Positions 1-6,073 of a stretch of DNA of 64,000 nucleotides are shown one piece after another. Origin of the DNA: a bacterium (GTDB lineage Bacteria > Electryoneota > RPQS01); assembly GCA_023382385.1 (NCBI GenBank), contig JAHDVH010000001.1, positions 863,611 through 927,610 of the forward strand, read 5' to 3'. Below the pieces are notes generated by a model. That model was not told where the DNA came from. It saw only the letters and a program-made list of their open reading frames with translations, and did no database searches. Position numbers and translations under genes: made by a program. The stretch's first letter is position 1. Each line of letters opens with the position of its first letter.

Positions 1-1308
1 CAGAAGGTCGACGAATTCGCCTTCGTGATTACTCTGACGCACCATGACTTCCAAGCCCAATTCCCGAGCGGTATCGCCGCACAGAATCAGCAACTCATCA
101 TACGTGGCGGTGCCATAAACTGCAGGCTCCCGTAGACCGAGCAAATTCAGATTCGGGCCGTTAATAACGAGCACACGCAGTTTTCGTGGCGACTTGGGAT
201 TTGCAGGTGTTCCCTGCTTGACAACCTTGCAGAGCCAATTTGCGCATTCGGCAACGACTGCTGAACTGACATCGGAAGAGACAATCGCCCGCCCCGCGTC
301 TTGCAATAAGATCCAACGCAGGTTCCGCTCCGCCGCCTTCTTGTCCGCCTGCAGCGCACCCAAAAGAGCAGTGGAGTCGCATTCTGCAGCAGGCAAAGGC
401 AGTTTCGACAGCCATCCAAGAAGTTCATCTGCGCGCTTAGGATGAAGGGTTTCCGTGTAGAGCGACATCCAGACCGTTGCTCTCAAACCATAAAACACCG
501 CTTCTCCGTGCCGCAGATTTCCATAGCCAGACGCATGTTCCAGCGCGTGGCCGAAGGTGTGTCCGAGATTGAGCAGCATTCGCTGGCCGCTTTCGCGTTC
601 ATCGCGCTCGACGATGCCAGTCTTAACAGATGCCGCTCTCGTCGCGAAGTCCCGAACTTGCTCAGGTGTCCACAAGAGTGCGTTCGGTCCGGCAAGTTCG
701 ATTTGCTGCCAAAATTCTCCGCCGGCGATCAGCGCGCTTTTCACGATCTCTGCGGCTCCCGCCAGCAAATCACGTTGCGGCAGAGTGTCTAAAGCAGCGA
801 GAGGCGCCAGCACGAGCGACGGCTGGTGGAACGCCCCAATCAGGTTCTTGCCCAGCGGATGGTTGATTCCCGTCTTGCCGCCTATCGCAGCGTCCACCAT
901 TCCCAGCAGCGATGTCGGAACGGCAACCCACGCGATTCCGCGTTGATAGACACTCGCTGCAAACCCTGCGATATCAGTCACGACTCCACCGCCGAGCGCG
1001 ATGATAAGGTCATCCCGGGCAAATCGATTGATCGCAAGAGCGTCCAGAATCTCGTTCAACCGCATGGAGTTCTTCTGCTCTTCACCGGGTGGCAACACAT
1101 GCTGCGAACACTCAAAGCTCCTGCGGGTCAACGCGGAAGTCAATTCGGCAAGGTAGTGCAGAGCGACATGTTCATCGGTTACGATTAGGATTCGCGGACG
1201 TCTCGCGTGGTAAAACGAATCAATCTCGTTCGCAACCCAGGCAAAGCCGGAAGCTGAGAATCGAATGGGCACGGTTCCCGAGGAAGTCTTCAGTTCAAAC
1301 GAGTCCAT
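1..1308 (-). CDS. aroB-aroQ: Bifunctional 3-dehydroquinate synthase / type II 3-dehydroquinate dehydratase (AroB-AroQ fusion), partial
   Basis: Translated directly from the minus strand, one uninterrupted frame runs from the ATG at 1308 to the window edge (436 codons, no stop), so the 3' end is missing. Residues 1 to about 370 are dehydroquinate synthase (DAHP to 3-dehydroquinate): the NAD-binding [11 protein letters not shown], the AEIVK segment and the metal-binding [10 protein letters not shown] and HGEAV segments are all present. After a short linker ([11 protein letters not shown]) comes the start of a type II dehydroquinase: [17 protein letters not shown] carries the family's catalytic Arg and Tyr, followed by QSNHEGE. 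AroQ (about 145 residues usually) is therefore cut by the window. The start overlaps the end of aroK by 14 bases. The fusion would join steps 2 and 3 of the shikimate pathway in one cytoplasmic polypeptide. I am sure of the AroB part and of the in-frame junction; whether the AroQ part is complete cannot be seen. Confidence 0.95.
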
Positions 1309-1816
1309 CAATGGTCTCAAAGATCATCAGAGCAGTTTGTCGGGGATCCGGGTCATTGACCGGGAAAGTTAAGGGCGCTTCGTCAAACAGGGCCTTGCGG
1401 CGCCCGAGCAGGTCCGCCAGCGTTGCGATTCGCTCGGCAAGCGATTGCCCGTCCGGCAGCAACGGACGCCCGGTCTGATGCAGCGTCCGCGCAGCGATGA
1501 GTTCTATCGGTGCATGTAAATAGACCAGCAAGCCGCTTGCACCGATCACATCGCGGTTCTCTTCGCGTTCCAACGCGCCGCCGCCCAAAGCGATCACACT
1601 GTCGCCACGCGATGCGGCTTGCACGAGGGAGATGTTCTCAAAATCACGGAATCTTTGCTCTCCAAGTTTAAGAAAAATCGCCGGAATCTTCATTCCGGCG
1701 CGTTCTTCTATCAATTGATCCAAGTCGATAAAGGGTTGACCGCGCAACTCGGCAAGCATCGGCCCGATCGTACTCTTGCCCGAACCGGGCAGTCCACACA
1801 AGTAGACTATTGCCAC
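1295..1816 (-). CDS. aroK: Shikimate kinase
   Basis: A 173-residue P-loop kinase that phosphorylates shikimate to shikimate-3-phosphate with ATP (step 5). The Walker A motif GLPGSGKST is at residues 8-16, the substrate-binding DLDQ segment follows near residue 32, ALGGGA is the second conserved glycine loop, and GRPLL is the lid region with its arginine. The length is normal for AroK. It overlaps aroC by 10 bases and aroB by 14, so translation is probably coupled along the operon. Confidence 0.95.
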
Positions 1817-2970
1817 GGTGACGGCGGGGTTGATTGAACGTGCGCGCGAATCTCAGTCATCGAGTCACCGCCGAACTTTTCCATAAAGGGGTTCATCAAA
1901 GCGATTAGAGTCATTGCTTCGCCGACGATTCCGGCAGCGGGAACAACACAGACGTCACTTCGCTCTCGCAGCGCTTGTACTGCTTCACCGGTTGCCAGAT
2001 TCACAGAGTCGAGCGGCTGCATGAGAGTGGAAAGCGGCTTCATCGCCACGCGCATGACCAGTCGCTCACCGTTCGACATTCCGCCTTCGATTCCGCCAGC
2101 CGAATTGCTCGTGCGCACGACACCATGAGGGGCAGGATACATCCTGTCATGCACCTGACTGCCGAAAACATCAGATACGCCAAATCCCATTCCGAACTCA
2201 ACTCCTTTGGCAGCGTGAATCGAGAGCATGGCCTGAGCAAGAATGCCATCGAGCCGACGGTCGTAATGCACGTGGCTTCCTACTCCGACGGGCAGTCCAT
2301 CAACAATCACTTCAAAAACTCCGCCGACCGTATCTTTGGCGTCAACCGCTCGGTCGATGGCCTCGATCATCTGGTGCTCTGCAACCCGATCGCCGCACCG
2401 GACAGGGCTTTCCTCTACTCGGGCAAAGAACTCGCTTAACGGCTCGTTCTTTTGCGGCGATGAGGCGGACACTCCTGCGATCTTCACAACATGGCTGTAG
2501 ACGCGAATACCAAACTCGGCAAAGAACTTTCGACAGACAGCCGCGAGCGCAACACGCATTGCCGTTTCGCGCGCCGAAGATCGTTCAATAACATTGCGAA
2601 TATCATCATGATGATATTTCATCGCGCCAGCGAAGTCCGCATGGCCGGGCCGTGGACTCGAGAGTCTCTCAGTTTGATTCTGTGTACCCGGATCTCCCAC
2701 CGCCATCTTGCCCTGCCAATTTTCCCAATCGAGGTTGTCAATAATCAGTGCGAGTGGAGATCCCAGTGTCATTCCGTACCGAACACCCGCAACGATTCTG
2801 GCTTGATCCTTCTCGATTTTCATTCTGTCGCCTCGGCCATAACCTCGCTGCCTGCGGGACAGATCAAGCGCGATTTCAGATTCAGAAACTGCAAGTCCTG
2901 ATGGCAGACCTTCGAGGATACCAGTCAGACTCGGCCCGTGACTCTCTCCTGCCGTCAGCAAACGAATCAT
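1807..2970 (-). CDS. aroC: Chorismate synthase
   Basis: A 387-residue FMN-dependent enzyme converting EPSP to chorismate (step 7). Signature segments visible are GESHGPSLTGILEG at the N-terminus, RRQRGYGRGDRM, the GIEGGMSNG loop, and RSDVCVVPAAGIVGEAM near the C-terminus. The start ATG overlaps the aroE stop as ATGA. It lies between aroE and aroK, so step order and gene order differ. Reduced FMN must be supplied by another protein; no flavin reductase is adjacent. Confidence 0.96.
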   Translation of the reverse strand: MIRLLTAGESHGPSLTGILEGLPSGLAVSESEIALDLSRRQRGYGRGDRMKIEKDQARIVAGVRYGMTLGSPLALIIDNLDWENWQGKMAVGDPGTQNQTERLSSPRPGHADFAGAMKYHHDDIRNVIERSSARETAMRVALAAVCRKFFAEFGIRVYSHVVKIAGVSASSPQKNEPLSEFFARVEESPVRCGDRVAEHQMIEAIDRAVDAKDTVGGVFEVIVDGLPVGVGSHVHYDRRLDGILAQAMLSIHAAKGVEFGMGFGVSDVFGSQVHDRMYPAPHGVVRTSNSAGGIEGGMSNGERLVMRVAMKPLSTLMQPLDSVNLATGEAVQALRERSDVCVVPAAGIVGEAMTLIALMNPFMEKFGGDSMTEIRAHVQSTPPSPWQ

Positions 2971-3806
2971 GAGTTGCGCAGTTCGGGCAGCAATTCACGC
3001 ACAGCAATCTCAAGCGGGAACGGCTTGCCGGTCCAGATTTGAAAACTTTCAGCGGCCTGCGCCAGCAGCATCAGCAACCCGTTTTCCGTGACTGTGTTAA
3101 AGGACTTTGCGGCTTCCAGAAAGAGCGTCTTACGCGGCGCATAAACCAAGTCAAAGACCAATGCGCCCGCCTTAAATGCAAACGGGGGGTCGAGGGGAAA
3201 TCCCGGGTGTGCAACGCTTCCGACCGGTGTTGCCTGCACTATCAGGTCGAAGTCTGGGAGACGTTTGCGAGCCTTTGTGTGTGTCAACAAAGTCGGCGCA
3301 AAGGGACTTGGCAGAACTGTGGAAACGCGCTCCAGTGCATCGGCCGGCCTCCGCGAAGCCACTGCAATTTCGACAGGAGAAGCGATCTGTGCAACCGCGA
3401 CCATGCAGGCGCGGGCGGCCCCGCCCGTTCCAATGATCAAAACGCGGTCCGTGCGCGAAACGGATTCAAGTTTTTGCTCGAGGGCATAGCGGAAACCGGC
3501 CACATCGGTGTTATAGCCGATTAGCTTGCTTTGTCTGCGCAACAACGTATTCACAGCCCGCGCGGAAGATGCCGTCTCCGAAAGCTCATCGCAAAGGGAG
3601 TACGCCAAATCTTTGTGCGGCGCCGTGACATTCAGTCCGTCCCAGTCCACACGAGCCCGCAACAAGAAAGAGCGCGCCAACCTGCGTGGAAAGTCAAAGA
3701 GCGTATAACTTCCCGACGAACCCGTTTGCTGAAATGCCCATGAGAAGAGCACGGGAGACAAGCTCGAGGCGATATGCTCGCCAATTAGTCCAAGACGATA
3801 GGCCAT
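2967..3806 (-). CDS. aroE: Shikimate dehydrogenase
   Basis: A 279-residue NADP-dependent enzyme reducing 3-dehydroshikimate to shikimate (step 4). The substrate-binding SLSP near residue 15, the catalytic Lys in NVTAPHK, AVNTL, the NTDVAGF segment and the dinucleotide-binding GTGGAARA loop are all in the expected order. The start lies 3 bases after the aroA stop, and the stop overlaps the aroC start as ATGA. Confidence 0.95.
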   Translation of the reverse strand: MAYRLGLIGEHIASSLSPVLFSWAFQQTGSSGSYTLFDFPRRLARSFLLRARVDWDGLNVTAPHKDLAYSLCDELSETASSARAVNTLLRRQSKLIGYNTDVAGFRYALEQKLESVSRTDRVLIIGTGGAARACMVAVAQIASPVEIAVASRRPADALERVSTVLPSPFAPTLLTHTKARKRLPDFDLIVQATPVGSVAHPGFPLDPPFAFKAGALVFDLVYAPRKTLFLEAAKSFNTVTENGLLMLLAQAAESFQIWTGKPFPLEIAVRELLPELRNS

Positions 3807-3809
3807 CTA

Positions 3810-5117
3810 TCAAGTGAGTGATACTGAATTCGGGAAGTATTGTGAAAGTTCCCTGAAAAACTCAGGGTAGGAAATTGCGGCGCAGTCCGCCTGCTGAATG
3901 GTCAACTCTCCTTTGGCGACCAACCCTGCAAGCGCAAAGGCCATTGCAATGCGATGGTCGCGCTGCGTATCAATCGCTGCGCCATGCAACTTCGCGACAC
4001 CACGGATATGCAGGTTATCTCCGCGCACGCTTGCCTTCGCACCCAACGCATTGACATTCTCGGCTATCACCGTCAGGCGATCGCTTTCCTTGAGGCGCAG
4101 CTCTCCGACCTGCTCAAAAACGGATTCACCATCAATGGAGGCGGCCAGCACGGCGAGGACGGGAATTTCGTCAATAACTGTGGGCACTTCGGCGGCTTTT
4201 ACGTGCATCGGTGAAAGTTTACCGGCACGAACTGCAATCGTCCCCATCGGTTCGGCACAAACCATTTCGCTTACCGATGCGGAGACATTGGCTCCGGCAC
4301 GCCGAAGAATCTCGAACCATCCCGCACGGAGGGGATTCAGGAGTACATTTTCAATCGAAATTTCAGAGTCGGGAACAAGCAGAGCTGCTACCGCCCAGAA
4401 GGCAGCGCTTGAAAGATCTCCTGGAATCAGGCCACTAAGTTCAGGTGTATGATCCGCAGTCATTTCGCGCATGACGCTCCAGAAACCATCCTCACTCTGC
4501 CGCAGCCCCAGTAATCTTTCTGTGTGATCCCTTGAAGCGAAAGGCTCACGCACTCTTGTCATGCCGCGTGCAAAGAGACCGGCGAGCAACAGCGCACTCT
4601 TGACTTGTGCACTTGCGAAAGGCAAGTCGTGTTCTCTGCCCTGCAAATCAGTTCCGAGAATGCGGGCGGGAAGAGTCCCGCCTTTCTGCAAGTCAATCTT
4701 GGCACCCATCAGTTGCAACGGCTCAGCGACCCGTCCCATCGGTCTACGGCTCAGCGATTCGTCGCCGATGATCCTCCACTCTCCTTCACGTCCTGCCAGC
4801 ATGCCCATCAGCATTCTTGCGGTCGTTCCTGAGTTCCGACAATCAAGCGTCATACCGGAGCGAGTGGCCTCACCGCTGATGACAAGCTGATTGCCTTCGC
4901 GCTTGACCTGCTTGCCAAGCGTTTCGATGCAAGTTAGAGCAGTCTGGCAGTCGGCGCCGGTTCCGAAGTTCTCCAGCAAAACGGGTCGTGACTCAAGCAG
5001 CGAGAAGAGTGCCCGACGAATCGAGACAGATTTGTCACCCGAAAGAGTAATTCGCGCGCGTAGCGGCTGTTCGGCAGCCGTAACTCGCGCGGTTGCGAAC
5101 TTATTTTCCACGAACAC
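3810..5117 (-). CDS. aroA: 3-phosphoshikimate 1-carboxyvinyltransferase (EPSP synthase)
   Basis: A 435-residue enzyme adding the PEP enolpyruvyl group to shikimate-3-phosphate (step 6). Visible motifs are the SGDKSVSIRR substrate lysine, NSGTTARMLMG, the catalytic Asp region VIDEIPVLAVLAA and LRLKESDRL. The length is normal for the family. The start appears to be GTG at 5117, overlapping the end of the DAHP synthase gene by 17 bases; a second GTG two codons later is an alternative. No clear separate Shine-Dalgarno is seen, which fits translational coupling. Confidence 0.95.
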   Translation of the reverse strand: MFVENKFATARVTAAEQPLRARITLSGDKSVSIRRALFSLLESRPVLLENFGTGADCQTALTCIETLGKQVKREGNQLVISGEATRSGMTLDCRNSGTTARMLMGMLAGREGEWRIIGDESLSRRPMGRVAEPLQLMGAKIDLQKGGTLPARILGTDLQGREHDLPFASAQVKSALLLAGLFARGMTRVREPFASRDHTERLLGLRQSEDGFWSVMREMTADHTPELSGLIPGDLSSAAFWAVAALLVPDSEISIENVLLNPLRAGWFEILRRAGANVSASVSEMVCAEPMGTIAVRAGKLSPMHVKAAEVPTVIDEIPVLAVLAASIDGESVFEQVGELRLKESDRLTVIAENVNALGAKASVRGDNLHIRGVAKLHGAAIDTQRDHRIAMAFALAGLVAKGELTIQQADCAAISYPEFFRELSQYFPNSVSLT

Positions 5118-6045
5118 TCAAGGTGCGCCCAACAATCGGGGCAAGACGTGCGAGATCCGAAACAAGTTCGGTAAATTCATCGGGGTCGAGCGATTGATAA
5201 CCGTCCGACAGAGCCTTCTCGGGATCGGGGTGCATTTCCAAGAGCACGCCGTCCGCGCCGGCAGCGATCGACGCACGGGCCATTGGAGCCACCAAGTCGC
5301 GGCGGCCGGTGCCGTGCGAGGGATCGGTTATGACCGGTAAATGCGAGAGCTGTTTCAGGGCTGGAACGATGTTCAAGTCAAGAGTGTTTCGCGTGAAGTC
5401 CGAAAACGTGCGAATTCCGCGTTCACAAAGCACGACTTGGTCATTTCCTGCGGCCATGATGTACTCGGCAGCATTCAGGAATTCTTCCAGAGTTGCGGCC
5501 ATCCCCCGTTTCAGAAGAATCGGTTTGCCCGTTGCCGCGGCTTGCTTCAAGAGCACGTAGTTGTGCATATTGCGGGTCCCGATTTGCAGCATGTCTGCGT
5601 GCGCGGCGGCAAGCAGCACACTCTCTTCATCCACAACTTCAGTAACGATCGGCAGACCGGAAACACGGCGCGCTTCCGACAGCAGTTTTAACGCGGCTTC
5701 GCCCAAACCTGAAAACGAATAGGGTGACGTGCGCAGCTTAAAAGCTCCTCCACGTAACAGGTGTGCTCCCCCTGCAGCAGCATGCTCCGCGGCAGCAATC
5801 AGCTGTTGCGGCGACTCGACTGCGCACGGTCCGGCCATGACGGTCAGTTCGGTTCCGCCGACCGCCACGCCGCGCACACCTACAATAGTATTTGCAGGGT
5901 GGGAGCGCCGCAGCACTCGGTAGTAGCTCGGCTGATCCCAGAGCGCATTTTCGACAAAGTGTGAGGGGCGCTCAGACGAGGAGGGCTCGTTGGTCAAGCT
6001 GATATTCTTGGGGTCAGAAGTACGGGATTTTGAATCGCGGGGCAT
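5101..6045 (-). CDS. 3-deoxy-7-phosphoheptulonate (DAHP) synthase, class I-beta type
   Basis: First gene of the operon and first step of the shikimate pathway (PEP plus erythrose-4-phosphate to DAHP). The core reads MAGPCAVES, RGGAFKLRTSPYSF, LQIGTRNMHN, LLKRGMAATLEE, LCERGIRTF and ITDPSHGTGRR, which is the KDO8P-synthase-like I-beta subclass. The N-terminal 60 residues are divergent and polar; no full regulatory domain is recognised, so feedback control is unclear. The frame is open to a TTG at 6066, but a -10 box ends at 6074, which would leave almost no leader, so I prefer the ATG at 6045 (314 residues). The Shine-Dalgarno for that ATG is weak. Confidence 0.9.
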   Translation of the reverse strand: MPRDSKSRTSDPKNISLTNEPSSSERPSHFVENALWDQPSYYRVLRRSHPANTIVGVRGVAVGGTELTVMAGPCAVESPQQLIAAAEHAAAGGAHLLRGGAFKLRTSPYSFSGLGEAALKLLSEARRVSGLPIVTEVVDEESVLLAAAHADMLQIGTRNMHNYVLLKQAAATGKPILLKRGMAATLEEFLNAAEYIMAAGNDQVVLCERGIRTFSDFTRNTLDLNIVPALKQLSHLPVITDPSHGTGRRDLVAPMARASIAAGADGVLLEMHPDPEKALSDGYQSLDPDEFTELVSDLARLAPIVGRTLSVRGK

Positions 6046-6073
6046 ATCCAACTCGTGAAAGTTCAAGTCTTAC

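Follow-up and report, generated by a model that had tools for sequence, protein, structure and literature searches.

At the left edge of the window, by which we mean the whole 64,000-nucleotide stretch analysed here (G000:C1:863611-927610, from a genome of 2.9 Mb in 7 contigs), the minus strand carries an operon-like run of shikimate pathway genes in the order aroF-A-E-C-K-[BQ], reaching from position 6066 to past position 1. The last gene of the run is an in-frame fusion of aroB and aroQ, so that the seven steps to chorismate are covered by six genes (Table 1). These genes overlap or nearly touch one another, and the 3′ end of aroK overlaps the start of the fusion by 14 bases.

Table 1 The aroB-aroQ fusion, its parts and the neighbouring genes (positions are those of the window unless a contig is named)
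Feature	Position	Strand	Basis and remarks
aroB-aroQ fusion gene	1..1308 (first 436 of 527 codons); full gene G000:C1:863335-864918	-	Open reading frame and extension to the left
AroQ (type II dehydroquinase) domain	1..180 in the window	-	Residues 377-436; extends to ~517 outside the window
Interdomain linker, ~20 residues	181..243	-	Residues ~356-376; variable
AroB (3-dehydroquinate synthase) domain	244..1281	-	Residues ~10-355; PF01761 and PF24621, TIGR01357
aroK, shikimate kinase	1295..1816	-	ORF list; phmmer gene order in relatives; name from sequence reading
aroC, chorismate synthase	1807..2970	-	ORF, relatives; PF01264 at G000:C1:865498-866574
aroE, shikimate dehydrogenase	2967..3806	-	ORF, relatives; PF08501 at G000:C1:867153-867398
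aroA, EPSP synthase	3810..5117	-	ORF, relatives' gene order; name from sequence reading
aroF-type DAHP synthase	5101..6066	-	Start codon uncertain; name from sequence reading

The first-pass annotation had read this locus as a dehydroquinate synthase running without a stop into a type II dehydroquinase, and the complete gene bears this out. In the ORF list the minus-strand frame 1..1320 is open up to the left edge of the window and contains the motifs on which that reading was based (23 residues not reproduced here, and QSNHEGE). The remaining 276 bases of the gene lie past this edge; with the DNA to the left added, the AroQ domain is complete and the frame closes at a stop codon at C1:863335-863337 (L002:6725-6727). 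The frame is thus uninterrupted over 527 codons, with neither a stop nor a frameshift between positions 250 and 150, the stretch where a break would have separated the two enzymes. The 527-aa product is counted from the ATG at window positions 1306-1308, the best-supported start, which lies 105 aa upstream of the GGGV(V/T)TD motif; in most relatives the start codon is found 105-107 aa before this motif.

Both halves of the protein are complete members of their families. Pfam detected DHQ_synthase (148.8 bits), DHQS_C (120.8 bits) and DHquinase_II in that order, all full, and among the NCBIfam models the AroB half passed TIGR01357 (aroB) at 322.1 bits against a cut-off of 305 over query residues 35-353. 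The AroQ half matched PF01220 (DHquinase_II) from model position 1 to 137/138 with about 169-172.4 bits, over the curated cut-off, and also passed the NCBIfam type II dehydratase model NF003806 (174.4 bits, cut-off 171), while falling slightly short of the aroQ equivalog TIGR01088 (156.8 against 169.9). Relatives in the PDB are DHQ synthases over residues ~30-360 and type II dehydroquinases over ~375-517. AlphaFold2, run on the monomer with a 12-sequence alignment, placed both domains with good confidence for the most part (mean pLDDT 84.3), joined by a weaker stretch at ~371-400, and the best PDB fold matches of this model were DHQ synthases.

The catalytic segments that had been noticed in the translation belong to fully preserved active sites. 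Across all 12 fusions that we collected, the AroB residues D112, D139, K145, K154, N155, E187, K190, R243, N247, H250, H254, H267 and K323/324 are invariant; by the roles established for DHQ synthases, they include the NAD-, metal- (Glu and two His) and substrate-binding residues and the active-site lysine and asparagine. For the AroQ half we aligned the fusions to the M. tuberculosis enzyme DHQ2 (chain 1h05), in which Pro11, Asn12, Arg19, Tyr24, Asn75 and His81 correspond to P385, N386, R393, Y398, N449 and H455, and Asp88, Glu99, His101, Arg108 and Arg112 to D462, E473, H475, R482 and R486. All 11 positions are invariant in 12/12 fusions, so no catalytic residue was lost in the part of AroQ beyond the window; the roles of these residues in type II enzymes, including the catalytic Arg19/Tyr24 lid, have been described (PMC6011038). 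Mean identity among the fusions is 50% for AroB and 56% for AroQ, and the linker has a mean pairwise identity of 34%, with 2 of its 21 positions invariant.

This genome has no AroB and no dehydroquinase besides those of the fusion, and a type I dehydroquinase was not detectable in any of the 39 genomes of the phylum. The fusion must therefore carry out both steps, provided that the pathway works, which agrees with the proposal that steps 2 and 3 reside on one chain, as far as complete domains and retained residues can indicate.

To map its distribution, we searched 386 genomes, comprising this phylum and a broad sample of other bacteria, with a profile of the fusion. Two-domain matches free of an intervening stop occurred in only 12 genomes, those of the known fusions; the stops counted in two of them (G004 and G011) fall at the ends of the match and not between the domains. 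These are all 11 genomes examined of the family (8 genera) and one genome (G011) of a sister family. The 12 separately assembled fusions, from 9 genera, share 46-58% protein identity with the copy in the window and have linkers of similar length. The search for the AroB-AroQ architecture called for at first reading thus showed that it recurs, and, with ~468 genomes examined overall, no further AroB-AroQ fusion was found in the about 455 other bacterial genomes sampled; the reverse order, AroQ-AroB, was covered through the lengths of the listed AroQ open frames.

Several candidates elsewhere dissolved on inspection. Six genomes of another phylum, that of G082, gave matches spanning both domains, but with at least one stop between aroB and aroQ, and stops likewise separate the genes in the single two-domain matches of G022 (from the present phylum), G110, G245, G053 and G380. 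A 565-aa open frame around AroQ in G255 is no second fusion, its overlap with a separate AroK-AroB gene being coincidental, and a match in Nonomuraea gerenzanensis with 80% query coverage consists of two genes with a 4-base overlap. Searches of 82 genomes of the phylum of G082 and 6 of that of G245 turned up tandem aroB and aroQ genes but no fusion. In some of these pairs (L129, L130, L132 and L133 from the phylum of G082, and L108 from G245), aroB and aroQ are in frame with a single stop between them, located 0 to about 25 bases ahead of the AroQ start, as in the junctions TGA CGG ATG (L129) and TAG ATG (L133). Such pairs might be precursors one mutation away from a fusion, or possibly cases of stop read-through.

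The fusions form one clade on the AroB tree (SH-aLRT 97) and on the AroQ tree (SH-aLRT 88). Closest to them on the AroB tree stands family f4 of the same phylum, where the genes run aroE-aroC-aroK-aroB-aroQ, with aroB and aroQ separate or barely overlapping (a 4-base overlap in L082, a 2-base gap in L083). Since the nearest lineages keep aroB and aroQ as two neighbouring genes, a single origin of the fusion through loss of the stop between them is most likely; one such event in an operon of f4-like order is the simplest history, and we place it in the common ancestor of one bacterial order.

Other genomes of the phylum show further rearrangements of these genes. In family f4, G014 carries an AroK-AroB fusion (L082:2756-4411), an alternative joining drawn from the same operon order, and its AroQ (L082:4408-5283) is joined C-terminally to a 4HBT_2-type thioesterase domain according to Pfam; G019 has a similar AroQ gene of 291 aa (L083:3501-4376), the same length as the copy of G014, to which the Pfam run was confined. 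In family f7 (G017, G022, G025, G028, G031 and G034) and in G021 of family f8, aroB and aroQ are present and often adjacent (e.g., L084:3710-5310), and neither chorismate synthase nor shikimate dehydrogenase was detectable in these genomes, leaving what appears to be a stranded module for steps 2 and 3. From a reading of the ORFs, the neighbours of aroB and aroQ in G017 resemble a zinc-type dehydrogenase and a B12-binding radical-SAM protein. No AroB, AroQ or AroD was found in families f3, f5 and f6 or in G012, nor any AroC except in G036, among genomes of 2.3-5.8 Mb of which many are >90% complete; the whole shikimate pathway has apparently been lost across these families and in G012. The phylum thus displays adjacent genes, overlapping genes and both AroK-AroB and AroB-AroQ fusions as stages starting from one ancestral operon order.

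Set beside stand-alone AroB and type II AroQ, the two halves are ordinary representatives of their families, and the difference lies in their covalent joining and in the lack of separate copies. The first reading had also called the protein a bacterial echo of the eukaryotic AROM arrangement, which holds as an analogy but not as a common layout. Like AROM/Aro1 of fungi and Apicomplexa, the fusion is a multifunctional shikimate chain with AroB as its N-terminal domain; AROM, however, unites five activities (steps 2-6), its dehydroquinase being of type I, whereas the fusion has two domains only, its dehydroquinase is of the unrelated type II, as had been proposed, and aroK, aroC, aroE and aroA are separate genes. 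In sequence comparison the AroB half gives better scores with AroBs of bacteria than with AROM, which fits a separate origin. The AroK-AroB proteins (NF010627/PRK14021 and NF010556/PRK13951) are likewise joined neighbours of a bacterial aro operon that include AroB, but in these the shikimate kinase precedes AroB, whereas here AroQ follows it, and the fusion scored far below both models (170.8 against 565 bits for NF010627, 120.9 against 560 for NF010556). In the AroD-AroE proteins, too, a dehydroquinase shares its chain with the enzyme of an adjoining shikimate step; they perform steps 3 and 4 with a type I enzyme, unlike the present fusion, which combines steps 2 and 3 with a type II enzyme. 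Such bifunctional dehydroquinase/shikimate dehydrogenases occur in plants, some archaea, Planctomycetes and Acidobacteria (PMC11237513), and AROM/Aro1, AroK-AroB, AroD-AroE and AroE-AroK fusions are all already known (PMC11237513, PMC9074039). NCBIfam has two models for AroK-AroB and none spanning AroB and AroQ, and we found no description of an AroB-AroQ fusion in the literature searched, which included few subscription papers and no automated database annotations (a 'Multifunctional fusion protein' in PMC9695335 is an unrelated CMP kinase/Der protein). The fusion is therefore probably undescribed, a provisional judgement, and represents a new pairing within a familiar pattern in which neighbouring shikimate genes are fused.

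We consider it very likely that the protein is a single-chain bifunctional enzyme for steps 2 and 3, with one origin by stop loss and an AroQ part that is at least trimeric. Each half is expected to act as its own family does: the AroB half would close DAHP to 3-dehydroquinate, from which the AroQ half would make 3-dehydroshikimate through the anti-elimination typical of type II enzymes, and the likely benefit would be fixed 1:1 production and nearness of both sites. A point against this reading is that AroB is usually dimeric and AroQ a dodecamer, a tetramer of trimers, and the two may not be compatible in one particle. The type II active site takes Asp88 from the adjacent subunit, making the trimer the minimal catalytic unit (PMC6011038); as this residue is invariant in the fusions, the fused AroQ halves are expected to keep forming trimers at the least. 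The dodecamer has tetrahedral symmetry (PMC10772564), which would offer six two-fold positions where AroB dimers could sit, and an AroQ dodecamer bearing twelve AroB domains as six dimers, of about 690 kDa, would be the natural expectation. That it forms a closed tetrahedral particle of this mass, with the AroQ dodecamer as core, the AroB dimers on the two-fold axes and dehydroquinate passed between neighbouring sites, is a tentative picture to which we give perhaps one chance in a few.

A stronger form of the bifunctional reading would have dehydroquinate handed directly from site to site. Consecutive steps on one chain and the retention of both domains over deep divergence speak for such channelling, which we nevertheless regard as improbable, given a variable and weakly modelled linker and no sign of a tunnel or interface. 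Less probable still, and in our view quite unlikely, is that a separate AroQ is also or mainly made, through an internal start or proteolysis of the linker, leaving the enzymes functionally separate: the linker is poorly conserved and predicted with lower confidence, and some fusions have an in-frame GTG or TTG close to the AroQ start, but an in-frame ATG occurs there in only 1 of 12, most fusions lack a Shine-Dalgarno-like sequence ahead of any candidate, and several have no candidate start at all. The idea that an assembly or sequencing error deleted a stop between two genes, which might be suggested by the many unfused aroB-aroQ neighbours in other genomes, some of them in frame and parted by one stop, is hardly credible, as the recurrence of this architecture in 12 separately assembled and divergent genomes excludes chance and artefact.

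If the protein is a single-chain bifunctional enzyme, its gene would by itself be ready for use in engineered production of dehydroshikimate. Its importance would be greater should the fusion turn out to build a large particle of defined form, or a channel. It is also a natural experiment on whether flux gains from linking the dimeric AroB to the dodecameric AroQ. It adds another bacterial way of joining early shikimate steps, and among the genomes examined here no other fusion linked AroB to a type II dehydroquinase.
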